Part shown: positions 14,620-32,125 of the stretch, piece after piece
How the letters are laid out: each line of letters begins with the position of its first letter
Numbering within the stretch: the first letter of the stretch is position 1
Source: Mycobacterium sp. Marseille-P9652
GTDB lineage: Bacteria > Actinomycetota > Actinomycetes > Mycobacteriales > Mycobacteriaceae
NCBI RefSeq assembly: GCF_902652685.1
Contig: NZ_CACRUY010000012.1
Location: 1-64,000 of the forward strand
Direction: 5' to 3'
Length of the DNA: 64,000 bases
Program-made: the position numbers and the translations under genes
The notes under the pieces: generated by a model
The model's input: only the letters and a program-made list of their open reading frames with translations
Databases searched by the model: none
Told to the model about the DNA's origin: nothing

Positions 14620-15813
14620 GTGAGCACATCCGAGATGTTCGACACGTCGGAACTGCCGGCTGACGACGAGGTGGTGGTCTCGTTCCACGACGAGGCCCTG
14701 CTGCTCGGCGGCGAACCCGCCGCGGTCGAGTCCTACCTGGCGCGGCTGCGGACGGCCGCCGGGCAGGCGATCCGGATCGCCGGCATCGACGGCGCAACGC
14801 CCGCGACCGCGGCCAGCACGTATGTGCAGCTGCATCGCGACAGCCTCGACGCGTTGCGGGACGGCAACCTGGTTCCGTTGAGCGAGGGCCTCTTTCGCGT
14901 GGTGACGGGTGTCGACGCAGGGGAGATTCGGCTGCAGTGGCAACCGGCACTGCTCGCCCCGGAGGCGATGATCTCGGCGCAGATGATCGCGGTGCAGATG
15001 GCGTTGAAGTCCGCGGTCGCGCAGGTGGAGGACGCGGTCGCGCGCGTGGAGGACAAGGTCGAGTCGGTGCTCGAGGTCGCGCGGGCCCAGCGCGCCGGCG
15101 ACGTCCTGGGCACGAGCCTGACGGTGACGCGCATGGTCGAGTCGCTGGAGAAGTACGGGTCGCTGCCCGAGGCGTACTGGGATTCGGTGGCCGCTTTAGG
15201 GCCGGCGCTCAATGTCACGGTCGAGCAGCTGCGCGGCCACGTCGGCCGCATCCTGGCGTCCCTCGATCGCGCGCTGCCCGTGCAGCAGCGCGCCGGAAGG
15301 CTGCGAAACGCGATCAACGACAACCGGCTTGGCGACACGCTGAGCCTGCTGGTGATCGCCGAGGAGGCGCTGCACAAGTGGCAGCGCCTGAGCCTGGCCC
15401 GGGTCGAGTCGACGCAACCGGAGCAGCTGCTGCGAGCGATCGACGAGGCCCGCGAGCTCGTCCAGCACCATCTGCGTGAGGACGTCCGCATCTATCAGGA
15501 GGCGAAGGAGGCGCTCGACCGGTTCGCGAAGTCGGGGCCGATCGAGGGCTTCCGATTCTGGGCGGTGCGCGAGCTGGTCAAGCAGCGCGACGCGCTGCGC
15601 GACGAGCTCGACCGTTTCGCGGCGGCGCGCCAGCACCAGGTCGAAGCGTGGGAGGACTTCCACGTCCCGAGCCTGCTCGATGCCGCCGTCGCCGTCGTCA
15701 ACGCCGTCGGGGGTGCGACGGGCCATGCGCTTGCGGCCGTCGGCCGGGGGCTGGTCGGGGTCGGCGCGCACATGGCCTCGCCGTTGCGGTCCAAGGACAC
15801 CGAAGACGCGTGA
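14620..15813 (+). CDS. Uncharacterised helical protein with hydrophobic C-terminus
   Basis: A 397-residue protein without a recognised family. A mixed N-terminal domain (residues 1-110) is followed by a long helical, Glu/Arg/Ala-rich region with coiled-coil heptads (VAQVEDAVARVEDKVESVLEV, about 135-160; later LREDVRIYQEAKEALDRF) and an Ala/Val/Gly-rich C-terminal segment (GATGHALAAVGRGLVGVGAH) that could be membrane-associated. The GTG at 14620 follows a GAGGTG; the frame upstream is basic and atypical. It may be a structural or envelope-associated protein, which cannot be decided here. Confidence 0.65.
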   Translation: MSTSEMFDTSELPADDEVVVSFHDEALLLGGEPAAVESYLARLRTAAGQAIRIAGIDGATPATAASTYVQLHRDSLDALRDGNLVPLSEGLFRVVTGVDAGEIRLQWQPALLAPEAMISAQMIAVQMALKSAVAQVEDAVARVEDKVESVLEVARAQRAGDVLGTSLTVTRMVESLEKYGSLPEAYWDSVAALGPALNVTVEQLRGHVGRILASLDRALPVQQRAGRLRNAINDNRLGDTLSLLVIAEEALHKWQRLSLARVESTQPEQLLRAIDEARELVQHHLREDVRIYQEAKEALDRFAKSGPIEGFRFWAVRELVKQRDALRDELDRFAAARQHQVEAWEDFHVPSLLDAAVAVVNAVGGATGHALAAVGRGLVGVGAHMASPLRSKDTEDA

Positions 15814-16711: not shown

Positions 16712-17671
16712 CTAGCGCTGGTGGACCAGCGGCAGGCCCGGTATCGAAGATCTGCCCTTGAGCACGTACGAGGTCTGGATCGAGCCGATGTAGATGTCGC
16801 GCATGTCGGGGCCGCCCCAGGCGATGCTGGTCGGGGCTTGCATTAGGGTGCCGTCGGGGTCGTCTATCACGGTTTGGGCCTGCCCGTCCGGGCTGATCGC
16901 CACGATTCTGTTGGCGAGGACTAGCGTCACCCAGAGGTTCCCCTCGGCGTCGAACGCGCAGCCGTCGGCCATCCCCCACCGGCGGCCGACCTCCGGGTCG
17001 GCCAGGAACCGGCCGTGGTCGGGGCCGAACTCGTGAGGTCGTCGGTCTCCTAGAGGTGGGCCGAATCTCTCTGGCGGGCCGAGTGTTTCGCTTTCGATTG
17101 GATATCTCACGATGTCGGCATTCACCGTGCGGACAACGTACAGGTAGTCCTCGTTGCGGTCCAGCGCCATGCAGTTCGGGAAGTTCACGTTGTCGGCGAC
17201 CACGTGGGCCTCTTGGCGATCCGGGGCGACGCGGAAGAGGAAGCCGTCGGCGGTGCCGTTTGCGATGGTGTCGAGGAGGTTGGCAGCCATCGTGCTGACC
17301 GAACACCACAGGGCGCCAGTGGAATCGGTGAGGACGAAGTTGAGCCACCGCAGCGAGCGTCCGTCGAAATGGCCTTGTAGTAGCGGCGTTATCGCGCCGG
17401 TTTCTGTGTCGAGGTCCTGCAGCACGCCGGAGCCGAAGTTGGCAATCAGGAAGTGGCCGTTGCGGTCCAGAGCGATGCCGTTCGGCTCGCCACCCGCGTG
17501 GCCGATGCGGCGAATGGTTTTCTCGTCGAGGAGTTCCGCGACGGCAGAGGCCTTGTCGGAGGCGAACACTCGACTGTCATGGGTGACCAGAAGGTGCTCC
17601 GGGCGGTCCACGCCGTGCCCGATGGGGTGCAGGCGATTTACCTTGATTTGAGTTTCGGCCGTTCCGCTCAT
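16712..17671 (-). CDS. SMP-30/gluconolactonase-like beta-propeller protein
   Basis: A 319-residue protein with the six-bladed propeller pattern of SMP-30/LRE lactonases: GEPNGIALDRNGHFLIAN, NFPNCMALDRNEDYLYVV and GMADGCAFDAEGNLWVT are three blades with the metal-site Asn/Asp positions. These enzymes hydrolyse lactones in a Ca2+/Zn2+-dependent way; the substrate here is unknown. It is the last core gene before the low-GC island. Confidence 0.82.
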   Translation of the reverse strand: MSGTAETQIKVNRLHPIGHGVDRPEHLLVTHDSRVFASDKASAVAELLDEKTIRRIGHAGGEPNGIALDRNGHFLIANFGSGVLQDLDTETGAITPLLQGHFDGRSLRWLNFVLTDSTGALWCSVSTMAANLLDTIANGTADGFLFRVAPDRQEAHVVADNVNFPNCMALDRNEDYLYVVRTVNADIVRYPIESETLGPPERFGPPLGDRRPHEFGPDHGRFLADPEVGRRWGMADGCAFDAEGNLWVTLVLANRIVAISPDGQAQTVIDDPDGTLMQAPTSIAWGGPDMRDIYIGSIQTSYVLKGRSSIPGLPLVHQR

Positions 17672-18165
17672 CGATTCCTTCGGACTCTTCGCAGCAGACT
17701 CTACGCGGGCCGATCAGACGAATCATAGAAGCGTGAAACTGCGTCGGAGTGTTCACGCCGCGCCACCGCAGTTCAAGCGCTGTGGTGGCGGCGGCTGCCC
17801 GCGGGCCCGCGAACACCCAATGTGAGACGTTTCTGCCGGAGGTGCTACCTGGCTCGCAACGACCCCAGGCGTTGGAAGTCGAAAGCTTCGGAGCCGGTGT
17901 TCCGGCCGGTGTTTGAAGATAATTGTGGTGCGGTTCTACGCGCGGTTTGTTGCAGCGCTCATTTGTTGAACCGTCGTCCAGCCCCGCAAGCGGGTCGGCG
18001 CGAGACTCGCATCCGCAGTCGAAAGTGCGGACTAGCCGGCAACTTCTCGGCGTATCCGCGGCGGGAATCCGAGACGGGCAGACACATAATTACAAGGAAT
18101 GTTGGGTAAAGATTGATTGCGGCGCCTGAAGCGCGCCTCCTGCAGATCCACCATCGAGGAGCAGC
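17672..18165. other. Gene-free junction between core genome and island
   Basis: No reliable gene is seen in about 490 bases. Composition shifts from core-like to lower GC within it, with an A/T-rich stretch near 18085-18115 that could hold a promoter for the small gene at 18166. No tRNA, integrase remnant or clear direct repeat matching the right junction (31564-31672) was found by eye. Confidence 0.5.
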
Positions 18166-18408
18166 ATGTCGCTTATCGTTTCGTTCGAGTACCGCGGCGA
18201 TCGCAACGCTCGGTTCCAAGCCGAACGCCACTGCGGCTGGTTCTACGCCGACATGCCTGGCGGGGGTCGAATGTTGCAGCTAGAAACGTATGCGCAGGAT
18301 GGCACTACCAGTCAGATCATGCAATTCGATCGACGCGCGGCTGGAGAGCTGCTTGCGATCATTGCCAAGGTCTTCGTGGCTCCTACGAACGAACCGCCTG
18401 AACTGTGA
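18166..18408 (+). CDS. Small conserved actinobacterial protein of unknown function
   Basis: An 80-residue protein with SD GAGGAG at 18156-18161 before its ATG. The sequence (ISIVSFEY-like start, then RMLQLETYAQDGTTSQIMQFDRRAAGELLAII) recalls a family of small actinobacterial proteins with a LQLxTxG...SQxxQxDxxAAxxLxxLI pattern found near many unrelated genes. It precedes the defence operon in the same direction with 250 bases between, so it could be either an accessory of the system or an independent island gene. Confidence 0.6.
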   Translation: MSLIVSFEYRGDRNARFQAERHCGWFYADMPGGGRMLQLETYAQDGTTSQIMQFDRRAAGELLAIIAKVFVAPTNEPPEL

Positions 18409-18648
18409 TCCGGCGTAGCGGCTCAGTTACCAGAGCGGATGCCATGCATAGTGGGTGGTTGGACTTGTTGGCATTGCCTTGCCACAGCTTTGCGCTGGCG
18501 GCGACATCGACCACCAGCGGCGCAGGGCCGCGCTGGAATCCGTTCGGCTCGGACCGTGATGCGATAGTTGGCTACCGACGTCTGAATGCTCCGGACAATA
18601 AGACTGTCGTTTTACTACGGGTTCTGCTCGGCAGGCGCAGGGGCGAGC

Positions 18649-18655
18649 AAGGAGG
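18649..18655 (+). promoter_or_regulatory. Shine-Dalgarno deciding the Z1 helicase start
   Basis: AAGGAGG ends five bases before the ATG at 18661. It favours that start over the in-frame ATG at 18586, whose 25 extra residues look like non-coding translation. Confidence 0.8.
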
Positions 18656-18660
18656 CGGGG

Positions 18661-21417
18661 ATGGCTCCTAGCAAGGAAGTCGAAGAGGCTGCTGACGACC
18701 TTCAGGCGATGGTTTCGGGAGGCAAGTCCCCTGAGCAAGCCGCGCAAGCACTGATTAGATACGGGGCATCCGAAGAGGTCATCGCTTATGCGCGTGCGCT
18801 CTACGAGGAACGCGTCGGCATCATAAGTCACCTCAAAGAACCAATCGTCGTCAGCAAACCTGACAGCGAGCGCAGCTGGTATGGCGGACCGGGACCGTCC
18901 CCCGTCTACTGGGGCGAGTTTCGCCAAAACGTCATCGCTTCATTGCCCGCAGAAGTAGCGGACGACGCGATCGACGACATTGACCGCGCAACTAGCCGCA
19001 TCCTGGACTTGGCCGGCGCACCGGGCTGGCAGACGATCAGGACAAAAGGCTTGGTCCTGGGGTATGTACAGAGCGGCAAGACGACCAACTTCATGGGCGT
19101 GATTGCCAAAGCCGCAGATGCTGGCTACCGCCTCTTTATTGTCTTATCTGGGATCACCGATAATCTTCGGTCCCAGACCCAGGAACGTATTGAGGAAGTG
19201 CTACTGGGCGACCACTTCGAACGGTGGTATCTTCTGACTCAGCTTAACCAGGACTTCGCAATGTCGGGCAACGCCGCCAACCTGCTTAATGACCCCGGGC
19301 AACGACTGATCGCCGTAGTGAAAAAGAACGGTTTCCGACTGCGCCGGCTTAAGGATTGGATCGATTCAGCGGGCTCCGAAGTGATCAAATCATTGCCGAT
19401 CATGGTCATTGATGACGAGGCCGACCAGGCGAGTCTCAATGTTGCTAACAGAGGGCACATTTCTCGTATCAACGGATTGATCGGCCAGATCATCAAGAAA
19501 CCCCGTAGTACTTACGTCGCCTACACCGCAACGCCATTTGCGAATTTGCTTACCGAGCCTCAAACCTACGAGAACCTTTATCCGTCCAACTACATCGTCG
19601 AAATGAAACAGCCAGAAGGCTACTTTGGTGCAGAGCAGCTGTTCGGAAGAGATACCCTTTCCGACGACGAACCCCGACGAGTCACCGGCGGGTTGGACGT
19701 CATCAGGATCGTCCCTGACAGCGAGGCCGTAATGGTTAAGCCGCCCACTGGCAGGGGGGCTGTGTATGAGTGGACGCCGTCGGTGACCCCCGCACTCGCT
19801 GATGCCATCGCATGGTTCCTCCTAGCGACAGCCGCTCGACGTGCTCGATGGTCCAAGACAACTCATTCGACCATGCTGATCCACACTTCCATGCTCGCGG
19901 AGGCGCACAACCGGCTCAAAGTTCCGGTCGAAAGCCACGTGGCAGTCATCGCCGAAAAACTAAGCACTGACCGTGTTCTCGGGGACCGACTCCGGCGTCT
20001 ATGGGAAGATGAAGCGTCAGCGGTGCCCGCGGAAAGTATGGGTCTTGCCGTAGTCAGCTGGGAGCAAATCGAAACGACCCTCCCGCAGGTATTAGCAGAA
20101 GTCCGAGTGATCGTAGACAATTACACCTCGCAGGACCGCCTGTACTACGCAAAGGACACTCCCGCGACAGTCATCGTGATCGGTGGCAATACATTGTCGC
20201 GAGGGCTGACGCTGGAAGGGCTGGTTAGCAGCTACTTTGTCAGAGCGGCTTCGGCATACGACACCCTGCTGCAAATGGGCCGCTGGTTTGGCTATCGAAG
20301 GGGGTACGCAGACCTACCACGGATTTGGATGACGCAGGAATTGGCGGAATGGTTCCAAGACCTTGCAACGGTGGAGGAAGAGATCCGGAGAGACATCCGG
20401 TCCTATGGTGCTGGCATCACACCGGAGGATGTCGCTGTCAGAATACGCGTTCACCCGTCGATGATCATAACGTCAGCCGCAAAAATGCGCGGCGCTGTGG
20501 CCGCCTCTATTGACTTCAGCGGAAGCCGTGAGCAAACGATTATCTTCGAGCACCGCAAGGAAAAGTGGCTCCAGAACAATATCACGGCGACGCGAAAGCT
20601 GTTCACAGACGCCATCGCCGCTGTCGGCATCGAGGATAATCGTAAAACGGGGCGTATCATCGTCAAAGGCGTACCGGGTGAGCGCGTTTTGGAATTCCTA
20701 AAAACTTACAAGATGCATCCCAAGGCGGTCCGACTGCGCGCAGACCTACTGACGCGGTACATCCGAAAACAGATGGAACAAGGCTCGCTGATGGCTTGGA
20801 ATCTGGTCCTCATCGAGAATCCCAGGCGCAGCGAGGTCGTAGGTCTCGATCTTGGTGTGGGACGCGCGATCCGTACCGTCGAGCGAAGTAGGCTCGAGCG
20901 CTACTCAGACTATGCCAATATAAAAGCTTTGGTTTCCACTATTGACCGGATCTCAGACACAGGGGTCGCTGTTAAGGAACTGCCATCCGATGTAGACCCC
21001 AACGATGATTACGATCTGCGGAAGTATCGTGAGGACATAATGGGGGGCATCGGCCTGTTGGTCGTCTATCCAATCGACCGAGATTCAAAAATGCGCGAAA
21101 TTACGTCTGATAAGGAACCTCGCGATCCGAGGACGGATCTCAATGCGGTCGACCATGTGATCGGCTTGGGGATCTTTTTTCCCGACGCGGTCGGGGAACC
21201 CGTCGTCGAGTACAAGTCGGCCAAGATCGTCGGCCCAGTGGTCGAGGACCAAGTCGACGACTTCGCTGCCTTCGAAGAGGCAGACAAACTGGCTGCACAG
21301 TCAGAGGAGAACGCGACTATGCCCAGAGACTCGGCCGAAGCTGCTGCGATGGAACGCGAGGCCAAGGTGCCGCCGTCGGCCTCCGTTCAGCGCAGTTCTT
21401 CAAAGAGGGGACGATGA
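18661..21417 (+). CDS. Z1 domain superfamily-II helicase/ATPase
   Basis: A 918-residue protein. Helicase motifs: Walker A-like GYVQSGKTTN (135-144), Walker B DDEAD (251-255), motif III YTATPFAN (288-295), the Z1 signature GGNTLSRGLTLEGL (508-521, motif V) and QMGRWFGYR (538-546, motif VI with the arginine finger). The Z1 domain is known from restriction-like operons with MORC-type ATPases, where it is presumed to translocate on or remodel DNA. The C-terminal ~300 residues are specific to the family and end in a charged low-complexity tail. Its stop overlaps the next start (ATGA), making it the first gene of a tightly coupled operon of five. Confidence 0.92.
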   Translation: MAPSKEVEEAADDLQAMVSGGKSPEQAAQALIRYGASEEVIAYARALYEERVGIISHLKEPIVVSKPDSERSWYGGPGPSPVYWGEFRQNVIASLPAEVADDAIDDIDRATSRILDLAGAPGWQTIRTKGLVLGYVQSGKTTNFMGVIAKAADAGYRLFIVLSGITDNLRSQTQERIEEVLLGDHFERWYLLTQLNQDFAMSGNAANLLNDPGQRLIAVVKKNGFRLRRLKDWIDSAGSEVIKSLPIMVIDDEADQASLNVANRGHISRINGLIGQIIKKPRSTYVAYTATPFANLLTEPQTYENLYPSNYIVEMKQPEGYFGAEQLFGRDTLSDDEPRRVTGGLDVIRIVPDSEAVMVKPPTGRGAVYEWTPSVTPALADAIAWFLLATAARRARWSKTTHSTMLIHTSMLAEAHNRLKVPVESHVAVIAEKLSTDRVLGDRLRRLWEDEASAVPAESMGLAVVSWEQIETTLPQVLAEVRVIVDNYTSQDRLYYAKDTPATVIVIGGNTLSRGLTLEGLVSSYFVRAASAYDTLLQMGRWFGYRRGYADLPRIWMTQELAEWFQDLATVEEEIRRDIRSYGAGITPEDVAVRIRVHPSMIITSAAKMRGAVAASIDFSGSREQTIIFEHRKEKWLQNNITATRKLFTDAIAAVGIEDNRKTGRIIVKGVPGERVLEFLKTYKMHPKAVRLRADLLTRYIRKQMEQGSLMAWNLVLIENPRRSEVVGLDLGVGRAIRTVERSRLERYSDYANIKALVSTIDRISDTGVAVKELPSDVDPNDDYDLRKYREDIMGGIGLLVVYPIDRDSKMREITSDKEPRDPRTDLNAVDHVIGLGIFFPDAVGEPVVEYKSAKIVGPVVEDQVDDFAAFEEADKLAAQSEENATMPRDSAEAAAMEREAKVPPSASVQRSSSKRGR

Positions 21418-22436
21418 CTCCGGCCTCGGGCGCGTCCGAAGAGGCTTGGCGGCTCCTCGAACGTGCGAAAAACGAGGATCTGACGACCCGCGAGAGTGGC
21501 GTTAGTACCACTGGAGGTTCGGTGGTCCATGCTCTGGACCCCGGGCGACACCGCCATCTCTTGTTGCCCGTAACGCCCGAACACGTCGACATTGAAGACA
21601 GTCGGTCGAGGGGCGTGTCTGTCACGATGCGAATCCTCCAGGGCGCCGAGGAGAAAGAACGGCGCTATATCGACGTTGAGTGTCGGGAGGTACCGCTAAA
21701 CGACCTCTTCTCCACCGTCTGCGACGAGATCTTAGTGTGCGTTGCAAACACACCCGATGCCGCCGGTTTGTGTGTGACCACCATTTTGGAGCGCTGGCGT
21801 GAACTGCTAGGACCGGCCAGTCAAAGACTTCTCAATGAGCAGGCGCTGAAAGGACTACTTGCCGAGTTGCATGTCTTAGAGGCTCTCGCTGCCGTCTCGC
21901 CTTCTCTGGCGATGAAGATCTGGACCGGCGTCCAACGGCGTCGCCATGATTTCACCGGTGTTCATGCCGCATGTGAGGTCAAGGCCTCGTCCCTGACAGA
22001 AGAGGTCAAAATCCATATAAACGGACTTCGACAGCTGTCGGCCCCGCCCTCCGGTTCGCTGTACTTGGCCGTTGAAAGGTTCGAGCGGGTGCCCGACGGC
22101 GGCGACTCCATAACTCAAGCAATCACGCGCATCGAAAGACTTGGAGTTGCTAGCCTCCAGCTCCTGTCGCAGCTGTCTGAGCTCGGCGTCCAGCCCGCCG
22201 ATTTAACCGTTTACCGCCAAGTGCAGTTCCGTTCCCTCGAACGACGGCTCTACCTCGTCGACCACAGTTTTCCGCGCTTGACTCCTGAACTGCTCCAAGG
22301 AAAATCAGCGGCTGATCGGATCAGCAGTGTCGAATACGTGCTTAACCTGGGCGCACAACCACCGGTACCCCTCCCATCCAAGGCTTTCGACGAGTTGCCG
22401 GGCTGGCTATTCGAGGGGAGTAAAGATCTGCTGTGA
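21414..22436 (+). CDS. PD-(D/E)XK family nuclease-like protein (DUF4420 type)
   Basis: A 340-residue protein with a restriction-endonuclease-like core: an N-terminal helix with Glu151 (GLLAELHVLEAL), Asp179 in RRRHDFTG and Glu188-x-Lys190 in HAACEVKASS, the D...ExK catalytic set. It belongs to the PD-(D/E)XK group once called DUF4420 that accompanies Z1 helicases. It is the likely effector nuclease of the operon. It overlaps both neighbours by four bases (ATGA upstream, GTGA downstream), arguing for fixed stoichiometry with the helicase. Confidence 0.88.
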   Translation: MTPASGASEEAWRLLERAKNEDLTTRESGVSTTGGSVVHALDPGRHRHLLLPVTPEHVDIEDSRSRGVSVTMRILQGAEEKERRYIDVECREVPLNDLFSTVCDEILVCVANTPDAAGLCVTTILERWRELLGPASQRLLNEQALKGLLAELHVLEALAAVSPSLAMKIWTGVQRRRHDFTGVHAACEVKASSLTEEVKIHINGLRQLSAPPSGSLYLAVERFERVPDGGDSITQAITRIERLGVASLQLLSQLSELGVQPADLTVYRQVQFRSLERRLYLVDHSFPRLTPELLQGKSAADRISSVEYVLNLGAQPPVPLPSKAFDELPGWLFEGSKDLL

Positions 22437-24292
22437 GCCTTAACCTAATCTCCGAACGGTATTCGGCGTCTGGGTCGATGGTCGCACGCACCTTGAGTCG
22501 CGCCGTGCGCAACACCGAGCTCGATGAGTGGTCCCTACTGTTAAGGGAAACCCTACAGAATTCCATCGATGCCCGGTTAGACCATCGGCGAGCGATCGAT
22601 TTCCGCGTCGGACTCAATAGCGCAACGTCATATCAACGCACGGCGCTAAGCCACGACGTCTTCGGCTATGACATTCCGAAAGAACTCGAAGCATTAGCCA
22701 CCGTGTTGAAGCGTCGAGAATTGCCCCTGCTTATCATCGCGGACTCGGGCACGCGGGGACTGGGCGGACCCACGCGCGCGGACACAGTCACCCAAGACCG
22801 CACCGACTTCAGGGACTTCTTCCTCAACGTTGGGCGCGAAGAAGCCAAGCGGTACCAGGGGGGCACCTTCGGCCTCGGCCGCGGCATCCTCTTTGAGATC
22901 AGCGAGGCCGCCACTATCGTCGTGTTCACCCGAACAACCGCAGAAGGTAAGCCCGTGGTCCGGTTGATGGGCATGTCTCTGAGCGCCACATACGACCGCG
23001 CGGGACACCGCTACACCGGCCGACATTGGTGGGGTGTCGATTCCGATGGTGGGCAACCTCGTCCAGTGACCGGCAGGCCGGCCGAGCAAATCGCCGGCCG
23101 GCTTGGCTTAGACGCAGTTCCGCCTGATTCGACCGGAACGGCCATCCTCGTAGTCGCCCCTCGAATCCCGCAGAACGATGACGACTCAGTCCGGCTGTTG
23201 GAGCCGATCGACGAGATGATTAGAGCAGCAGTGCAATTCGGCTGGCCACTTATGATCGGTCGCCATGGCCGGCGGGCCGTGAGATTTACATTTGAGCACG
23301 GCGGCGAATATTGGGAGCCCGGACCGCCCGATGCGCCCGAAAGTCCCGTCAGGCACTTCGTCGAAGCGTACCGAATCGCCGAAGCAGCCGATCCTCCCGG
23401 ATCACCCAGTTCGTGGCGATATCAAGACATTCAGTTTCGTGCAGGGCGCAGCGAACCCAAACCCCTAGGCGCCCTTGCCTTCAGGCACCTACCCCCTGTC
23501 ACGGGTCAGCCACCTGAGGAGGACGACGGATCGGGAATTCCGCCGGCCTCGATCGCGCTAATGCGCAACCCGCGCATGGTCGTTCGATACTTGCCGGTCG
23601 CAAAGCACCCAGCAGGATCTTCGACCGTCGGGGTATTTATCGTGGACGACCACTTCGATCGACAATTCGCCGAGTCGGAGCCCGTCGCACACGACGACTG
23701 GATCCCCGCCAAAATTGCGTCGGTTAAGAACCAATTTAATCCGGTCAAGCAGGCCCTCGACAAAATCAAAGCAGCGGTAAAAAACAGTTGGATCATCGAT
23801 GTGATACCCAGCGGCCCTGACTCGGGGCCCGACGGGCTAGCACCAATAATCGGCGATCTGCTCGGCGGACTGGTCGCCGACACACCCGGCTTCAGTGGCC
23901 AGCCCGGCAAGAAGGCGTCAAAGCCCCCTCCGACTTCTAGTCCCAAGAACACACGAGCCCTCGTGATGACACCCCAACTACGCGCCGGCGACAGCGGCGC
24001 TCTGCTCGCAGTTTTTCCGGTGAAAGTCGAGCGCGTCAATGCTGGATCGTCGGTAACGCTCAGAGCGGAGGCGAAGGTGGTGCTGGATCGCGGAGTGGAG
24101 AAGGAGGAAGATAGGCCTGCCGATGCCCCCGCACCCTTGGTGGCGGGATGGGAGAATTTGAACGGACAACTCTTGGATGATCGCGCTCGCCTGACCGTCG
24201 ACAGTTCAATTAAGGAGTTACGCCTCCTCGTCACGCAGCCATTGGACACCGTCATAACGGTAGAGGTGGAGGCATCGGAGTTTATAGGATGA
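22433..24292 (+). CDS. Large GHKL-type ATPase-like protein
   Basis: A 619-residue protein. Although no named family was recognised, the first 155 residues carry the GHKL nucleotide-binding boxes in order: N-box LLRETLQNSIDAR (Glu39, Asn43, Asp46), G1 IADSGTRGLGGP (Asp104) and a lid/G2-like GGTFGLGRGILF (143-152). This would make it a second ATPase besides the MORC-like one at 26150. The middle part is beta-rich, residues ~480-510 are a Pro/Ser-rich linker, and the C-terminal ~110 residues look like a separate beta-sandwich. Starts at a GTG overlapping the previous stop. Likely role: ATP-dependent clamp or switch in the system, by inference. Confidence 0.75.
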   Translation: MSLNLISERYSASGSMVARTLSRAVRNTELDEWSLLLRETLQNSIDARLDHRRAIDFRVGLNSATSYQRTALSHDVFGYDIPKELEALATVLKRRELPLLIIADSGTRGLGGPTRADTVTQDRTDFRDFFLNVGREEAKRYQGGTFGLGRGILFEISEAATIVVFTRTTAEGKPVVRLMGMSLSATYDRAGHRYTGRHWWGVDSDGGQPRPVTGRPAEQIAGRLGLDAVPPDSTGTAILVVAPRIPQNDDDSVRLLEPIDEMIRAAVQFGWPLMIGRHGRRAVRFTFEHGGEYWEPGPPDAPESPVRHFVEAYRIAEAADPPGSPSSWRYQDIQFRAGRSEPKPLGALAFRHLPPVTGQPPEEDDGSGIPPASIALMRNPRMVVRYLPVAKHPAGSSTVGVFIVDDHFDRQFAESEPVAHDDWIPAKIASVKNQFNPVKQALDKIKAAVKNSWIIDVIPSGPDSGPDGLAPIIGDLLGGLVADTPGFSGQPGKKASKPPPTSSPKNTRALVMTPQLRAGDSGALLAVFPVKVERVNAGSSVTLRAEAKVVLDRGVEKEEDRPADAPAPLVAGWENLNGQLLDDRARLTVDSSIKELRLLVTQPLDTVITVEVEASEFIG

Positions 24293-25200
24293 GCCGGACC
24301 ATTAGCCGCGGTTACCTATTGCCCTCGCCAGAGTGTTTCAACGCGTCCGAATGGCGCGTGACACCCGCAGGTCGTGAACCCCTAGCGGACCCTGATCGGA
24401 TCGACGGCTGGGACTACGCAACCGACCTATTGATAGAACGAACGCTGTCCGTAGATCTCGAAGCGGTGCGCGCCGAGGCGGGGTTGCATTCTCGTGATCA
24501 GTTGCGATGCGTCATTCAATGGACGTCGCCAGCCGAGAGCTCTACCGGATTGCAGGGATCCTCACCGGTGAAAACACTCACCGAAGGACCGCAGGACATT
24601 AGCTGTCTGGTAACAGGGTTCGAGATCGGCGGCGTTCTGCAACTCCGAACAACTGTGTCGCTGGCGATCGGATCGTCCGATGTCCGGAACCCGCTGGCCG
24701 CGCGCCGCTCCGGCTCTATCCTGTGGTCTGATGAGCACCAAATAATCCTTGAAGGTGAAGCCACACGGTTCCCAACCGAATTACTCAGCTTCAGCGCCAG
24801 CGGATTAGGCCCGACCGGCTGCGCCTGGCGTGTCATGGTGGAGACGGCCGACCTAGACGCGCCCGCGTTGTCTGCCGTTAGGGTCCTCATCAACAGTGAC
24901 CACCCAGCGTATGAGTGCTTAACGAAGAAACCAGATAGTGCGGAGGCGGCGCTTACGCGCGACTTTTTGCAATATGACGTAGCACGCCAACTTGTCCTAG
25001 CCGCGCTCGCCCAGGATGAGTTGAAAACCGTAGACTACGAACCGGGTTCAATTGGAGCGATTCTCCGCGCGCGGCTGATGACGTATTTCTCCGCCGAGGG
25101 CCGCGATATCGCTCCGCTCAGGCAGCGCTGGCGACTCGACCCTGGGGAAATCGATGCGGAACTCCAACCCTTCTTCCTGACAGGCAAGTTTGATGGCTAG
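24289..25200 (+). CDS. Unknown protein of the defence operon
   Basis: A 303-residue protein, family not recognised. The first ~200 residues alternate short beta strands (RCVIQWTSP, LQLRTTVSL, CAWRVMVETAD, AVRVLINSD) and look like a beta-sandwich. The last ~90 residues are helical (FLQYDVARQLVLAALAQDEL ... RARLMTYFSAEG). It overlaps the upstream ATPase by four bases (ATGA) and the next gene by eight. Its fixed position between the ATPase and the DUF6339-like gene suggests an adaptor or target-recognition subunit. Confidence 0.8.
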   Translation: MSRTISRGYLLPSPECFNASEWRVTPAGREPLADPDRIDGWDYATDLLIERTLSVDLEAVRAEAGLHSRDQLRCVIQWTSPAESSTGLQGSSPVKTLTEGPQDISCLVTGFEIGGVLQLRTTVSLAIGSSDVRNPLAARRSGSILWSDEHQIILEGEATRFPTELLSFSASGLGPTGCAWRVMVETADLDAPALSAVRVLINSDHPAYECLTKKPDSAEAALTRDFLQYDVARQLVLAALAQDELKTVDYEPGSIGAILRARLMTYFSAEGRDIAPLRQRWRLDPGEIDAELQPFFLTGKFDG

Positions 25201-25954
25201 CCCGCTCTACTTTCCTCGCATGCCGGGCTTAGCCGCACGCAAGCTCCTCGCCGAGTACACGAACATGAAAATCGAGGATCTTCGCTCTCGAGCCGAGCTT
25301 GAGTCCGATCAGGCGTACTACTATCCCACAGCTCCCTCGGGCCAGCGAGTCCCTACGTCGGTGCTCGACGAATTCCAGAACACGATGCGCGAAGTCGCAA
25401 AAAACTTCGGCTACCCAGAGAAGCTAAGCCCGAAAGACCGCAGACGCACTGAGTGGGACCGCGTAGTCGTCGAGCACATCCTCCAGGTCACGCCGCTCAT
25501 CCCTGCCGAAGCATCCGTGCAATCGGTGTGGTCATATCTAAGTCTGGTGGTTGTACCAGATGTCGCATTCTGGAGATGGCCGAACAGGGGCAATAAGGAC
25601 GATTACGAACGCATCTTGGGCTATCCGCGAAACGTCTTCCGCCGGTTGTGGTGGCGGGCATTCGCCTTGGGTCCAGTCGCCGCGGAGATCTTCGAGGATG
25701 AAGCCGTGGCGATCCTCGAACGAACTGCAATCGGTGGAAACCGCAAGGTGGCCCGGATCATTGCCGAGACACACCTGCGTGAACTAGGCGATGAGGGTCG
25801 ACGCACCTTGCTGATGCGCGATGCTATGAAACGACTCCGGCGACTGCACGCGTTCATCTCGTTCCATTCGCTTCAGGAGGGCGAGATCCGAGCACTGGTG
25901 GAAGAGGTCTTCAGCTCCGCTAGGTCGTCCCTGCGGATCAAAGTGGCTGGTTAG
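25193..25954 (+). CDS. DUF6339-like protein of the defence operon
   Basis: A 253-residue, mostly helical basic protein beginning MASPLYFPRMPGLAARKLLAEY. Conserved-looking features are WDRVVVEHILQVTPL, WSYLSLVVVPDVAFWRWP and the RNVFRRLWWRAFAL helix. I recognise the pattern as DUF6339, a family seen with Z1/PD-(D/E)XK operons, with moderate certainty. No catalytic motif is evident; Trp/Arg-rich helices might bind DNA. ATG at 25193 is taken rather than the adjoining TTG. Last gene of the five-gene operon; 195 bases follow before the MORC-like gene. Confidence 0.75.
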   Translation: MASPLYFPRMPGLAARKLLAEYTNMKIEDLRSRAELESDQAYYYPTAPSGQRVPTSVLDEFQNTMREVAKNFGYPEKLSPKDRRRTEWDRVVVEHILQVTPLIPAEASVQSVWSYLSLVVVPDVAFWRWPNRGNKDDYERILGYPRNVFRRLWWRAFALGPVAAEIFEDEAVAILERTAIGGNRKVARIIAETHLRELGDEGRRTLLMRDAMKRLRRLHAFISFHSLQEGEIRALVEEVFSSARSSLRIKVAG

Positions 25955-26149
25955 ACATAATTTGAGTAGCCCAACATGCCGATCCTAGGCTCGCCCATCT
26001 GGGCATCGATTGCACCGGCACTCCACGACGCCGTCAACACCGCTGAGTGATCCACAAACCAATCGGCCTGCCGCGAGTCGGTCGAAAATTGTCCGCCCTC
26101 CCTGCTTAACTATGGCCAACAGCAGCACCGATCTAGGAGCTCTAGCGCA

Positions 26150-27433
26150 ATGAAACTCTCCAGCGCCGCGCCGTCGGCGGCTCGACTCACGTCCTCTTTG
26201 CGGGACATTGGCTACGACTTCGTCAGCGCGGTCGCCGACCTTATCGACAACAGCATCGCCGCGGGTGCGACTGACGTCGCGGTGGAAATCGAGTTTGCTG
26301 CTGGAGACTCCGCAATCTACATCGCGGACAACGGTTGTGGGCTCAACGCGCGGGGAATGACCGAGGCACTCCGGTTCGGGAGCCGGCGCACTTACGGGTC
26401 CGGTGATCTTGGTCGATATGGGCTGGGCCTGAAGACTGCGTCGCTATCCCAAGCGCGTTCCTTGACTATCGTCTCGAGATCGGCTGACCGCAAGCGTCCG
26501 CTCTGGAGGTCGCTGGACTTGGATCTCATCGCTGAGTTCGATGACTGGGTACTTGCCGAAAACCCCCGAGACCACGCCGTCACCAAGAGCGAAGAGATGC
26601 TCGGGACTGGTACAGGCACTGTTGTGATCTGGCAGAACCTCGATCGAGTCCTACCCGCCTCCGGCGCGAATGGGGGATGGGCGAAACGGCGCTTCGAGGT
26701 ACTCGTGGAGAAGACCAAGCGGCATCTCGCGATGGTGTTTCACAGATTCCTGACAGGTGAGAACAAAGCTCCGCGTATCTCCATCAGCGTCAACGGCGAA
26801 AAGGTGCGCGCTTGGGACCCCTTCGTTCGCCATGAACCTGGGACACAACAGCTGTCGACGCAGCAGTTCGAACTCGAAAGCTCGACAGGAGTGGGAGCAG
26901 TCGAGCTTCGCCGCTACATTCTTCCCGGCAAGAGAACATTCAGCTCCCTCGACGCGTTCGAGAACGCAGCCGGACCACTCAATTGGAACCGGCAGCAGGG
27001 CCTATATGTTTATCGCGAAAATCGGTTGGTGCAGTGGGGAAGCTGGGGCGGCACCCGGGGTATCGACGAGCATACAAAGCTTGCCCGCGCGAGTCTCGAC
27101 TTCACGAGCACCCTCGACGAGGTCTTCAACATCAATGTTGCGAAGATGCGGGTGTCCGTGCCAGCTCAGCTGAAACAGATGTTAGAGCGGCCCGTCAGCG
27201 AGTTGTGCATTTTGGCTGACCGGGTCTACCGTCGCCACAACTCCGAAACAACCGAAGACGGCGACGAGGTTGTCGAACACGAAGACAAGGCCCCGCTCAG
27301 CGGCTCACTTTCGGAGATTGGGTTGGCGCTTAAATCAGCAGCCATCCAGTCAGGCCACTACGACGCCTTCAAAGAAGTCATCGAAGTCATGAATCGGCAG
27401 CATCCTGAACTGGCAAGAGGTCTGGGTTTCTAG
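26150..27433 (+). CDS. MORC/MutL-like GHKL ATPase
   Basis: A 427-residue protein. GHKL boxes: N-box AVADLIDNSIAAGA (Asp30, Asn34), G1 IADNGCGL (60-64) and G2 GDLGRYGLGLKTAS (85-98). Then a ribosomal-S5-like second domain with RENRLVQWGSWGG and RASLDFTSTLDEVFNINVAKMRV, as in bacterial MORC ATPases. Such proteins dimerise on ATP binding and can clamp DNA; in this setting it should be the sensor or signalling core. SD AGGAG lies at 26135-26139. It follows the five-gene operon in the same direction and its stop overlaps the stop of the convergent methylase. Confidence 0.9.
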   Translation: MKLSSAAPSAARLTSSLRDIGYDFVSAVADLIDNSIAAGATDVAVEIEFAAGDSAIYIADNGCGLNARGMTEALRFGSRRTYGSGDLGRYGLGLKTASLSQARSLTIVSRSADRKRPLWRSLDLDLIAEFDDWVLAENPRDHAVTKSEEMLGTGTGTVVIWQNLDRVLPASGANGGWAKRRFEVLVEKTKRHLAMVFHRFLTGENKAPRISISVNGEKVRAWDPFVRHEPGTQQLSTQQFELESSTGVGAVELRRYILPGKRTFSSLDAFENAAGPLNWNRQQGLYVYRENRLVQWGSWGGTRGIDEHTKLARASLDFTSTLDEVFNINVAKMRVSVPAQLKQMLERPVSELCILADRVYRRHNSETTEDGDEVVEHEDKAPLSGSLSEIGLALKSAAIQSGHYDAFKEVIEVMNRQHPELARGLGF

Positions 27434-29373
27434 CCGCTGGCGCCAACACACCACCGGTTCAACGGGCATTCCATGCACAACGGCTTATCCACGAGGCAGA
27501 TCTCGGCCGCCAGTGCGATCAGTCCTAGGTGCGCCGAGCGTGAGTGTTCGGAGAAGCCAACCATCCCCGCCACTGCAATTCTCCCGTCGGTCTGTACATT
27601 TCTCTTGTCGGCATCGTTACCTTGAAAGCGGCTTGCGACGCGCAGAACACCCTTGGTGATCAGGACTGGTTCCTCGCTTTCATGCGCCCCCACGGTGACC
27701 GGCAACGCCAGTTCAACCAGGTCTACTAGAGCCGCCGGCATAGCCGACAAGGCCGCGCGATCAATGTTCGGCTGCCATAGTGCGGTCGGAGCGGCGTTCA
27801 TCTGTTCGACGAGCTGGCGCACCGCCGAGATCCGGTGGCCACGACCGACCCCCGACATGAGCTCATCGAGCAGATCAACCGCCTCGCCGCAAGGAACGCC
27901 ACTCGGGCTAAGGTTGTGTTGCCTGTCGATGATTGGCCAAACCGCATTAATGACGGTGGGTGTGGCACGGTCAAGAAGCAACTCACCAAGGACAAACTTC
28001 CACCGATTGTCTGTCTTCAACCAGGGGACAGTCGGGATGGAGGACTGTTCGCGGAACCAGCGAGCCAGTTTCGCCGACGTCTCCCGCGTCAAAAGCCCAG
28101 CCCTACTTCCGGACGCCAACGAAGCCCTAACCTCGGTACCAATAACTTGTCCGATTAGTGGCGGTACCGCGTTTCCGATCTGTTTGAATGCCGCCGAAGG
28201 CGGGCCCGCAAATCTGAAATCATCTGGGAAAGTCTGAATTCGGGCGGCCTCCCGCACGGTGAGAGTACGTGGCTGTCGAGGGTGGATGTACCAGTAGCCG
28301 TCTTTGGCGATATGCGCGGTGATTGTCCGCGAAAGATCGTTCTCGTCCAATTTCTTATACTTGTCGTCAAAAATGTCCTTGCGATAACGCTGGTACTCCG
28401 GAGCTAAGTCGGTGTACTTGGTCTTGTGCGTCATCGATTCGAATGCCGCACGGTCATCCTCGCGCACTGGACGGGTGATGTGATCGAACAACTTGAACGC
28501 GTCAACCTGCGCCACGTTTCGTCGCATCCATTTCTGGTACTCGGTCCGCGGGCCAACGTAGTCCGCCCACCCGAACGCACCGCCCGCCGGACGCCACCCA
28601 CCCTCAACTTCGGGCATATCACCAATCGCGTTCCAAAGCGTCACCCGCTTCTCAGACTCGGCCGGCCACGCGAATTTGATCCTGTTCTTCAGGGCGACCA
28701 ACAGCAACCGCTGCCGCATCTGAGGTACCCCGTAGCGCCAAGTATCGATAACACGGGCCGAAACTGAGTAGCCGATTTGCTCGAGTTCCTCCGTCATGCT
28801 GCGCAAGATGAACATCTCACGATCCAAAGCCATGTCCGGAACGTTCTCCATGATTACGGCACGCGGGCGGGCTAGCTGGACAATCTCCAGGAAAGAACGC
28901 CACAGGTCTCGGCGTTCGTCGTGGGGATCGGCTGCTCCGGTGAGAACTCGGTGACGCAGCATCGAACGTCCCGCCCGAGAGAACGGCTGGCAGGGCGGGC
29001 CACCTGCCAAGACGTCGATTTTGTTGCGCCTCAGCATCTTTGCAACACGCGCAATCGTTGCGGGATCCGCTAAATCCTCTTGCACCGACATCCCGGCGAA
29101 GTGGTGACGGTGGGTCTCAACGGCAAAGCCGTAGTGATCGACCCCCAGAACTACACGGAAGCCGGCGTCCTCGAGTCCTAAGCTCATACCGCCTGCACCA
29201 CTGAATAGGTCGGCGGCCAACGGCAGGCCGTGACTCCGTAGATGCGAGCAAAGTGCAGCTAGCTCCTTCTCCGAGCCGGCGTGACCCAGGTGAGGTGGAA
29301 GCTCGAGGAAAGGTCCTCGAATCTGCTTAACGGCATAAAATGACCCCATAGAGGTCTTCGATCGCGAGGCCAT
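27430..29373 (-). CDS. DNA (cytosine-5) methyltransferase with C-terminal HhH-GPD/[4Fe-4S]-like domain
   Basis: A 647-residue protein in two parts. Residues ~50-415 are a complete m5C methylase: motif I DLFSGAGGMSLGL, IV GGPPCQPFSRAG with catalytic Cys128, VI ENVPDM, VIII QMRQRLLLVAL, X KQIGNAVPP. Residues ~430-647 are an extension unusual for methylases: WFREQSSIPTVPWLKTDNRW and FVLGELLLDRATPTV resemble the start of MutY/EndoIII glycosylases. The end has Cys626-x6-Cys633-x2-Cys636-x5-Cys642, exactly the EndoIII iron-sulphur spacing. The catalytic Asp and hairpin loop appear changed. It methylates host DNA, presumably protecting it; the extension may bind DNA or act on deaminated m5C. Read on the opposite strand to the operon and divergent from vsr. 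Confidence 0.9.
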   Translation of the reverse strand: MASRSKTSMGSFYAVKQIRGPFLELPPHLGHAGSEKELAALCSHLRSHGLPLAADLFSGAGGMSLGLEDAGFRVVLGVDHYGFAVETHRHHFAGMSVQEDLADPATIARVAKMLRRNKIDVLAGGPPCQPFSRAGRSMLRHRVLTGAADPHDERRDLWRSFLEIVQLARPRAVIMENVPDMALDREMFILRSMTEELEQIGYSVSARVIDTWRYGVPQMRQRLLLVALKNRIKFAWPAESEKRVTLWNAIGDMPEVEGGWRPAGGAFGWADYVGPRTEYQKWMRRNVAQVDAFKLFDHITRPVREDDRAAFESMTHKTKYTDLAPEYQRYRKDIFDDKYKKLDENDLSRTITAHIAKDGYWYIHPRQPRTLTVREAARIQTFPDDFRFAGPPSAAFKQIGNAVPPLIGQVIGTEVRASLASGSRAGLLTRETSAKLARWFREQSSIPTVPWLKTDNRWKFVLGELLLDRATPTVINAVWPIIDRQHNLSPSGVPCGEAVDLLDELMSGVGRGHRISAVRQLVEQMNAAPTALWQPNIDRAALSAMPAALVDLVELALPVTVGAHESEEPVLITKGVLRVASRFQGNDADKRNVQTDGRIAVAGMVGFSEHSRSAHLGLIALAAEICLVDKPLCMECPLNRWCVGASG

Positions 29374-29469
29374 GCTGCAAGATTAAGTGAGCGGTGTGAC
29401 ACTCGCCCGAGGCGCGCCGTCATTCTCCTAGCCATCAAGCCTCCCAGAAGCATTGCCAGGAGCACAGCA
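29374..29469. promoter_or_regulatory. Divergent intergenic region between methylase and vsr
   Basis: Ninety-six bases separate the two opposite start codons, so both promoters must lie here or inside the genes. An SD AGGAG at 29458-29462 serves the TTG of vsr. No clear -10/-35 pair was identified by eye. Such a short shared region would allow the methylase and repair gene to be regulated together. Confidence 0.5.
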
Positions 29470-29898
29470 TTGACCCAGCCTCTCACTCCCCCAAGCGACG
29501 TTGTGCGACGGCAGATGCAGGCCCAGAAAACCGCTGGCACGCGCATGGAGTTACAGGTCCGTAGGCGGTTGCACGCCTTGGGCTACCGCTACCGAGTCGA
29601 CCGCAGGCCTCTTCCCGACGAAAAATTTAGAGGTGACATCGTTTGGAGTGGTCGTCGGCTCGTTGTGTTTTTGGACGGTTGCTTCTGGCACGGGTGCTCA
29701 ATCCACGGTACGACGCCAAAGTCGAACACCGGCTGGTGGCGGAATAAGATCGAAGGCAACCGGGCCAGAGACCGACGTGTGGACGAACTCTTGCGGCGGA
29801 ACGGTTGGACTGTATTGAGATTCTGGGAACACGACGACACAGAAGCGATCGTGGAAGCAATCACACAATATCTTGAATCGACAACGGGCCGGCGCTAG
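29470..29898 (+). CDS. vsr: Very short patch repair endonuclease (Vsr)
   Basis: A 142-residue Vsr endonuclease, which nicks DNA beside T:G mismatches left by deamination of 5-methylcytosine. Seen: Glu27 in RMELQV, catalytic Asp56 in FRGDIVW, and CFWHGCSIHG (71-80) with metal-binding Cys71 and Cys76 and catalytic-type His residues, then WWRNKIEGNRARDRR and GWTVLRFWEH. The fourth zinc position is His121 rather than the Cys of E. coli Vsr. The TTG start is chosen because an SD (AGGAG) lies seven bases before it; an ATG at 29515 is the alternative. Its pairing with an m5C methylase is the classic arrangement. Confidence 0.92.
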   Translation: MTQPLTPPSDVVRRQMQAQKTAGTRMELQVRRRLHALGYRYRVDRRPLPDEKFRGDIVWSGRRLVVFLDGCFWHGCSIHGTTPKSNTGWWRNKIEGNRARDRRVDELLRRNGWTVLRFWEHDDTEAIVEAITQYLESTTGRR

Positions 29899-29997
29899 AC
29901 GTTGTCAGCGATCGACTACTCTGTTAGTTCGCGACTCAGGCGTTCGAGGCTTCGATGCCAATACGCGGACATCGAGCACTATTGAAACGCGCTGAAC

Positions 29998-30006
29998 AAA
30001 AGGAGG
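29998..30006 (+). promoter_or_regulatory. Strong Shine-Dalgarno of the HNH-DGQHR gene
   Basis: AAAAGGAGG sits six bases before the ATG at 30013 and fixes that start. Confidence 0.8.
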
Positions 30007-30012
30007 CTTCGG

Positions 30013-31563
30013 ATGAGTGGAATCACTATATCCAAAAATATGCGTGCAAAGTTACCCGAAGATCAGCGCGAGGGCCTCGAAGACTACCTATGGGCAAAGT
30101 CCCAACAACTGTGCAGCCTCTGCGAACAGCCTATGAACAAGGTCGCGGACATGATTGAGGCCGATCACGACGAACCCGAGACTGAGGGCGGACAGACTAG
30201 CCGCGACAACCTTCGTCTAGCCCACGCCTCATGTAATAAAGCCAAGAGAAACAATCCATCCGTGGATGTGCGGCCCTACCTGAAACTCAGGGCGTTTGCA
30301 CAACAAAAGTCGAATGTTATCCGCTACGACGACTGTGCCGGCCATTTTGGGATTGTCGCTGGACCAACCGCAATTGAATCCACCGATTCGACGACAAGAT
30401 TCCAATTCTCCGACGGCACGACTCGAGAGATGCCGACTTTTGAAGACTCCTGGCCGAGTGGAAAGTTGTGGCGGTACGTATACGTAGATGTGCCCAGATC
30501 CGCCCTCTACAACGATTCGGAATGCCAACCTCGCACGATCAAACTTGGACAAGCCTGGGCAATTTTCGTCGATCTACAGAAAAATCCCCTTCACGAACCG
30601 CCAAGCTGTAGAGTTGTGCCGGATCCCAGTGGAGAGAAACGCCTCGCAATGTTTGATGGCCAGCACAAAACGGTGGCGACATGGATGCGCGGAGCACAGC
30701 GCGTTACCGCGAAGGTATATCTGAATCTTTCAAAGGACGAGGCTATACATCTTGTCAACTCAATCCAGGCCAAGATTAAAAAGTTGCCATTATCGCCGTT
30801 TGAGCTATCTGCGAAAATGTCGGATGAGTGGTCTGCGAAGCTGGGGGAGTACGAATCAGCAGTCGGTTCGGACGAAGCGTCAGAGGCGGGATTCATCGAT
30901 TGGCTTCCCGCGCTCGACCGACAGCGTGCGAAAGGGGCCTTCCAAGCCGCCCTCGTGCAAGATTTGTTGTCAGCGCCCGAGCTCGCAATGCTGAAGTTTG
31001 TTCGCCGCGCCGGTCAGCCGGAGACTGATACCTCCCTTATCACGGAGAACGCCTTCAAGGAAAAGGTTCTAAAGCGGATGCTGCAAAGCAAACCTCTGAC
31101 TGAAAGGGGCGATGAAGGTCAAGGACTTCGCAATCGAGAGCGTGAGAATATTACTCAGGCTTTAAACACCTTGAACGAGCTCGCTTTCGAACCGCAAGGG
31201 GCTGGTATTCCCCTATCAGCGGATGAGACTGAGCGACGAAGAAGGATGGTTTATCAAAGCTCGCTAGCTTATATTGCCACGTTGCTCCGTTCCCTGTATC
31301 GCCAAGTTCTTGCTTTAGACCAAGAGCGAGCGATGCTTGAAAAACAGCCGAATGAAACCCAACTCCAAGCGATTCGAGAGGGCGTAGAACGGCTGGTGAA
31401 TCATCCGGTCTGGACGACTCTGTTCGACCACAGTCAAAAGATGAAGGCGATCCAAGATGCGCTATCGAAGAACCAAGATGCCAAGGCCGCTTTCGAAGCA
31501 GTCGGGCTTAAATTGGGCTATCTCGTTGGCGCCGATGAACTTCCGAATAATTGGTATTCGTAG
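30013..31563 (+). CDS. HNH endonuclease-DGQHR domain fusion protein
   Basis: A 516-residue protein. Residues 34-80 form an HNH nuclease with a zinc knuckle: CSLC (34-37), the catalytic ADHDEP (Asp51, His52), DNLRLAH (Asn66, His71) and CNKAKRNN (74-81). Residues ~150-260 contain FDGQHKTVATW (214-224), the DGQHR-type motif known from DndB/DGQHR and ParB-like proteins, where it is linked to DNA-modification or nuclease systems. The C-terminal half is helical with a possible coiled coil (LYRQVLALDQERAMLEKQ). It lies just after vsr in the same direction and is the last gene of the island. It could be the cleavage subunit or a regulator of it; which is not clear. Confidence 0.82.
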   Translation: MSGITISKNMRAKLPEDQREGLEDYLWAKSQQLCSLCEQPMNKVADMIEADHDEPETEGGQTSRDNLRLAHASCNKAKRNNPSVDVRPYLKLRAFAQQKSNVIRYDDCAGHFGIVAGPTAIESTDSTTRFQFSDGTTREMPTFEDSWPSGKLWRYVYVDVPRSALYNDSECQPRTIKLGQAWAIFVDLQKNPLHEPPSCRVVPDPSGEKRLAMFDGQHKTVATWMRGAQRVTAKVYLNLSKDEAIHLVNSIQAKIKKLPLSPFELSAKMSDEWSAKLGEYESAVGSDEASEAGFIDWLPALDRQRAKGAFQAALVQDLLSAPELAMLKFVRRAGQPETDTSLITENAFKEKVLKRMLQSKPLTERGDEGQGLRNRERENITQALNTLNELAFEPQGAGIPLSADETERRRRMVYQSSLAYIATLLRSLYRQVLALDQERAMLEKQPNETQLQAIREGVERLVNHPVWTTLFDHSQKMKAIQDALSKNQDAKAAFEAVGLKLGYLVGADELPNNWYS

Positions 31564-31672
31564 AGGTGCCTGCTTCGGATTACCTGGCGGCCCCCGTGAA
31601 GGGATCGGATCACGGCCGTTGTGGCCCTCATTGGAGTACTGCTCCAGCGGGAGTAACACGCAGGCGGGGTGA

Positions 31673-32125
31673 TTACGCGCGCTGCGGCAGAGCTGACAAC
31701 CACCCATCCGGAAGCAATTCCAACAGCTGCCCGTCCGGGTCCCGAATCATAGCCGACCCCTCCGTCACCGTCGTGTCGACCACCGATCCCCCAAACTCCG
31801 CAACGCGCCCCAGCACGCCCGGCAGATCAGACACAGAAAACGAGATGTGCGTCAAGCCCACCTGGTCCATCGTGCGTTCCGCCCCGGCGTGCACCTCGCG
31901 CTTCGAGTAATCAAGTAACTCGAGCACGAAGCCGTCCCGCACCAGGTACGTCGCATGCACACCGAGCGGCTCGGGTAGCCCCACCAGCTGCGCGGTCCTG
32001 TCGTCGGGCGGGTCAATCTCCCACCAGAACTGAAACCCGAGCAGGCCCTCGTAGAAGCGCCGCGACCTCGCACGATCGGCGACGCATAGCCCGACGTGGT
32101 TGAAAGTCGTCCGGTGACTGCTCAT
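31673..32125 (-). CDS. VOC superfamily protein (glyoxalase/dioxygenase-like)
   Basis: A 150-residue protein with two beta-alpha-beta-beta-beta units: FNHVGLCVADRARSRRFYEG (His as first metal ligand), then LTHISFSVSDLPG (second His) and DPDGQLLELLPDG (Glu). The spacing matches methylmalonyl-CoA epimerase and glyoxalase-like enzymes. ATG at 32125 begins the first strand. It is the first core-type gene right of the island and faces away from the P450 that follows. Confidence 0.85.
   Translation of the reverse strand: MSSHRTTFNHVGLCVADRARSRRFYEGLLGFQFWWEIDPPDDRTAQLVGLPEPLGVHATYLVRDGFVLELLDYSKREVHAGAERTMDQVGLTHISFSVSDLPGVLGRVAEFGGSVVDTTVTEGSAMIRDPDGQLLELLPDGWLSALPQRA

Follow-up and report, generated by a model that had tools for sequence, protein, structure and literature searches.

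An exchangeable MORC, methylase and Vsr cassette with a tailed methylase beside a five-gene core in a mycobacterial genomic island

The DNA analysed here (the window) comprises the first 64,000 nucleotides of contig NZ_CACRUY010000012.1 of Mycobacterium sp. Marseille-P9652, and carries an island in which a core of five genes (the pentad) is followed by a three-gene cassette encoding a MORC ATPase, an m5C methylase and a Vsr protein. Most of this gene set had already been predicted; the window is set apart by the tail of the methylase, which reads as a dead DNA-repair enzyme, and by the cassette itself, which relatives combine with two distinct attack modules. The intact set probably recognises and destroys DNA that lacks the methyl marks of the host. 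The genes of the pentad and of the cassette are as follows.

18661..21417, +: PF10593 protein, MzaC-like (PF10593 1.4e-67; motifs; ribosome-binding site)
21414..22436, +: PD-(D/E)XK nuclease, DUF4420, MzaD-like (PF14390 1.4e-45; E-D-ExK intact)
22433..24292, +: GHKL ATPase P0003, paraMORC2-like (GHKL boxes; ExxxH at 416-420; weak PDC-M33A match)
24289..25200, +: core protein of unknown family, Ig-like beta-sandwich and helical C-terminus
25193..25954, +: DUF6339 protein (PF19866 1.5e-4, 22 bits; possible alternative TTG start, 25190)
26150..27433, +: MORC ATPase of the cassette, MORC1, P0006 (HATPase_c_3 4.2e-26; MORC motif of Iyer and colleagues, GLYVYRENRLV, at 284)
27430..29373, -: tailed m5C methylase (methylase domain 28129-29214; FeS-type pseudo-glycosylase tail 27433-28086)
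29470..29898, +: Vsr, T:G mismatch endonuclease family (TIGR00632 7.6e-36, 123 bits, cutoff 97.85)

A scan of genome contigs gave 418 relatives, and the analysis was limited to the top 80, a choice biased towards near relatives; these loci span Actinomycetota, Pseudomonadota, Chloroflexota, Myxococcota and others, and counts are subject to contig ends, 10-kb flanks and the use of a single hidden Markov model (HMM) set. All five pentad genes were present in order at 73 of the 80 loci, which bears out the original prediction that they form a unit, and the five-gene core is a real one. A methylase was found at 74 of these loci and Vsr at 52. Searching with P0003 matched 26 of 397 genomes of the order, own genome included; among the others, 23 matched at E < 1e-37, and the fetched neighbourhoods held a methylase in 22 and Vsr in 19 of the 23. 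Across 101 genomes of the order a PF00145 gene was found in 62 (109 match pieces altogether) and Vsr in 51, while the genome of the window has a single match to each, both inside the island. Because genomes of the order carry about one methylase apiece, we infer that a methylase within 10 kb of nearly all pentad loci is not due to chance.

The tail of the methylase matches the Mig.Mth/MutY HhH-GPD glycosylases in fold and in its FeS cysteines, the cysteine pattern being present in 37 of 38 tails, while the glycosylase catalytic Asp is replaced in all 38 examined (register from alignment to 1kea). A MORC scoring above 150 bits was present at 21/21 tailed loci versus 2/59 untailed loci, and 7 other untailed loci gave GHKL matches of lower score (33-142 bits); the proposed co-occurrence with MORC held where the methylase is tailed and was rare at untailed loci. 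It is quite possible, if a little short of an even chance, that the tail simply serves the methylase in target recognition or stability and signals nothing to MORC, a reading compatible with the preferred one. Loss of the Asp from all 38 tails, with the DNA-binding fold retained, would fit such a role; the distribution of MORC between tailed and untailed loci, weaker matches included, argues against it.

With respect to MORC1, matches among solved structures were to MutL (7.1e-7) and MORC2 (8.8e-5). The N-box of P0006 and its relatives, whether cassette or MzaB-like MORCs, reads ADxxDNS, with Asp at the position where MutL has Glu. The MORC-family motif GhXhhpXXRhl of the S5 domain, defined by Iyer and colleagues, is matched in P0006; the loose pattern occurs in 21 of 22 cassette MORCs and also fits a second place in P0006.

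The cassette was also found with an effector other than the pentad and travels as a unit. Effector swaps occur naturally within one genus, the cassette remaining the same, and two loci (L180, 1019-19901; L068, 2197-21862) have a single cassette with both the pentad and an MZA effector. On recount the forced effector switches came to three, and cassette exchange itself stands.

The setting of the gene set was analyzed by blastn comparison of window positions 14001-36000 with the corresponding site in four other genomes of the genus (L202-L205).

17634..31684, no strand: variable low-GC island, bounded by breaks of the blastn alignment against the four genomes
18166..18408, +: listed feature
30013..31563, +: HNH and DGQH protein (PF01844 3.8e-8; DGQH at 215)

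Alignments end on the left at 17629-17673 and resume on the right at 31670-31685, between an unnamed gene (16712-17671, -) and VOC-like and P450-like genes (named by eye). The cargo between these common flanks differs in each of the four genomes, two of which hold other methylase and Vsr sets: a methylase, three large genes and Vsr in L202, and a methylase, a 275-aa gene and Vsr in L203. L204 carries a kinase-like gene (by eye) and L205 other genes; an extra blastn match (window 14820-15693, 71%) falls within the L204 cargo. Cargo at this hotspot is varied, and profile matches, motifs and low GC confirmed the earlier claim of an intact multi-gene set in lower-GC DNA.

Such a site, and a cassette that moves as a unit to a different effector, would also suit two independent neighbouring systems: a pentad that follows a logic of its own and, apart from it, a modification system of MORC, methylase and Vsr. 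We consider this unlikely, as some methylase lies beside the pentad in 74/80 loci though methylases are so few in the order, and at some loci (L077) the genes form one codirectional array. Less probable still is a role chiefly in DNA repair or epigenetic control, with very-short-patch repair linked to MORC. Vsr, a MutL-like ATPase and a domain derived from a T:G glycosylase all belong to mismatch handling, and active-looking Mig-type glycosylase genes adjoin the methylase in Halomicrobium and Lujinxingia; against this stand the patchy spread, low GC, hotspot site, the nuclease and translocase, and the reported antiviral activity of MZA relatives.

The original prediction of a restriction-like set had included the HNH-DGQHR protein together with the methylase, Vsr and MORC, and it is this member that fell away. 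No homologue was present in any of the 80 pentad loci; across the 397 genomes there was a strong match in its own genome only, plus four weak partial matches, and plasmids and phages searched at E 1e-5 gave none. Its absence from the loci and scarcity of relatives ruled it out as a conserved component; it is probably a passenger inside the island and may act by itself.

Within the pentad, P0003 matched neither Pfam nor NCBIfam families nor any solved structure searched; its likeness to paraMORC2, judged by motif alone, follows from the ExxxH of the C-terminal part of S5, E416 and H420 being invariant in 21 aligned sequences. The Ig-like protein is probably a scaffold or adaptor. The PF19866 score of the DUF6339 protein lies under the cutoff of 23.2 bits, and the gene at the matching place in L188 is annotated DUF6339.

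Neighbours were clustered for a dedicated restriction enzyme replacing MORC at MORC-less loci, but the largest unassigned cluster covered 6/80 loci, and no common substitute emerged. Nuclease-like or GHKL neighbours were seen at some of them (L036, L039 by eye, L035). Methylases of 708-736 aa adjoin the pentad in beta- and gammaproteobacteria (L083, L091, L094, L102, L106, L121, L122); about 330 N-terminal residues of that of L083, the only one scanned, had no Pfam family match.

Bacterial MORC proteins are kin of the eukaryotic chromatin-silencing MORCs, and to our knowledge their biochemistry is poorly known. A cassette coupling MORC with a methylase whose extra domain is of a base-reading kind offers a direct route to what MORC senses, and the natural effector swaps predict that self/non-self specificity is located in the cassette.

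Among known systems, MZA (MzaABCDE) is approached by the MzaB-, MzaC- and MzaD-like proteins of the window. Profile searches gave these their family matches, all below the NCBIfam cutoffs (MzaB 255.5/850, MzaC 392.8/1500, MzaD 57.7/420 bits), and detected no AIPR or MzaE protein among the nine window proteins; no MzaA sigma factor was among the matches listed (for P0007, 25 of 59 PADLOC matches), the presence of an MzaA model in the libraries not being confirmed. The paraMORC2, Ig-like and DUF6339 genes are extra to MZA. The methylase tail shares its fold and C-x6-C-x2-C-x5-C loop with the Mig.Mth T:G glycosylase and MutY, but differs in its replaced catalytic Asp and its fusion to a methylase. 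In the available parts of the respective sources, CglI/NgoAVII has a PLD-B3 R-protein (PMC4267653) where the window has a PD-(D/E)XK nuclease and two GHKL ATPases, and the Corynebacterium diphtheriae BH8 island has an EcoRII-like nuclease, with neither MORC nor tail named (PMC5379612). The accessible text of Miller, Stern and Burstein 2022 (PMC9523054) reports MORC for a type II putative defence system and, for type I, which has three additional genes, mentions neither methylase tail nor cassette exchange. Of the MORC/paraMORC operons described by Iyer, Abhiman and Aravind in 2008 (PMC2292703), the third type shares with the window the DThhQXuRhFG helicase, RE-fold nuclease, DCM, VSR, the MORC with GhXhhpXXRhl and the paraMORC2 with ExxxH. 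The distinct variant originally suggested is narrower than proposed, most of the set having been predicted before and HNH-DGQHR being no part of it, and consists in the tailed methylase and exchangeable cassette; the combination of MORC, paraMORC2 and glycosylase-tailed methylase seen in the window is undescribed in the available portion of that paper.
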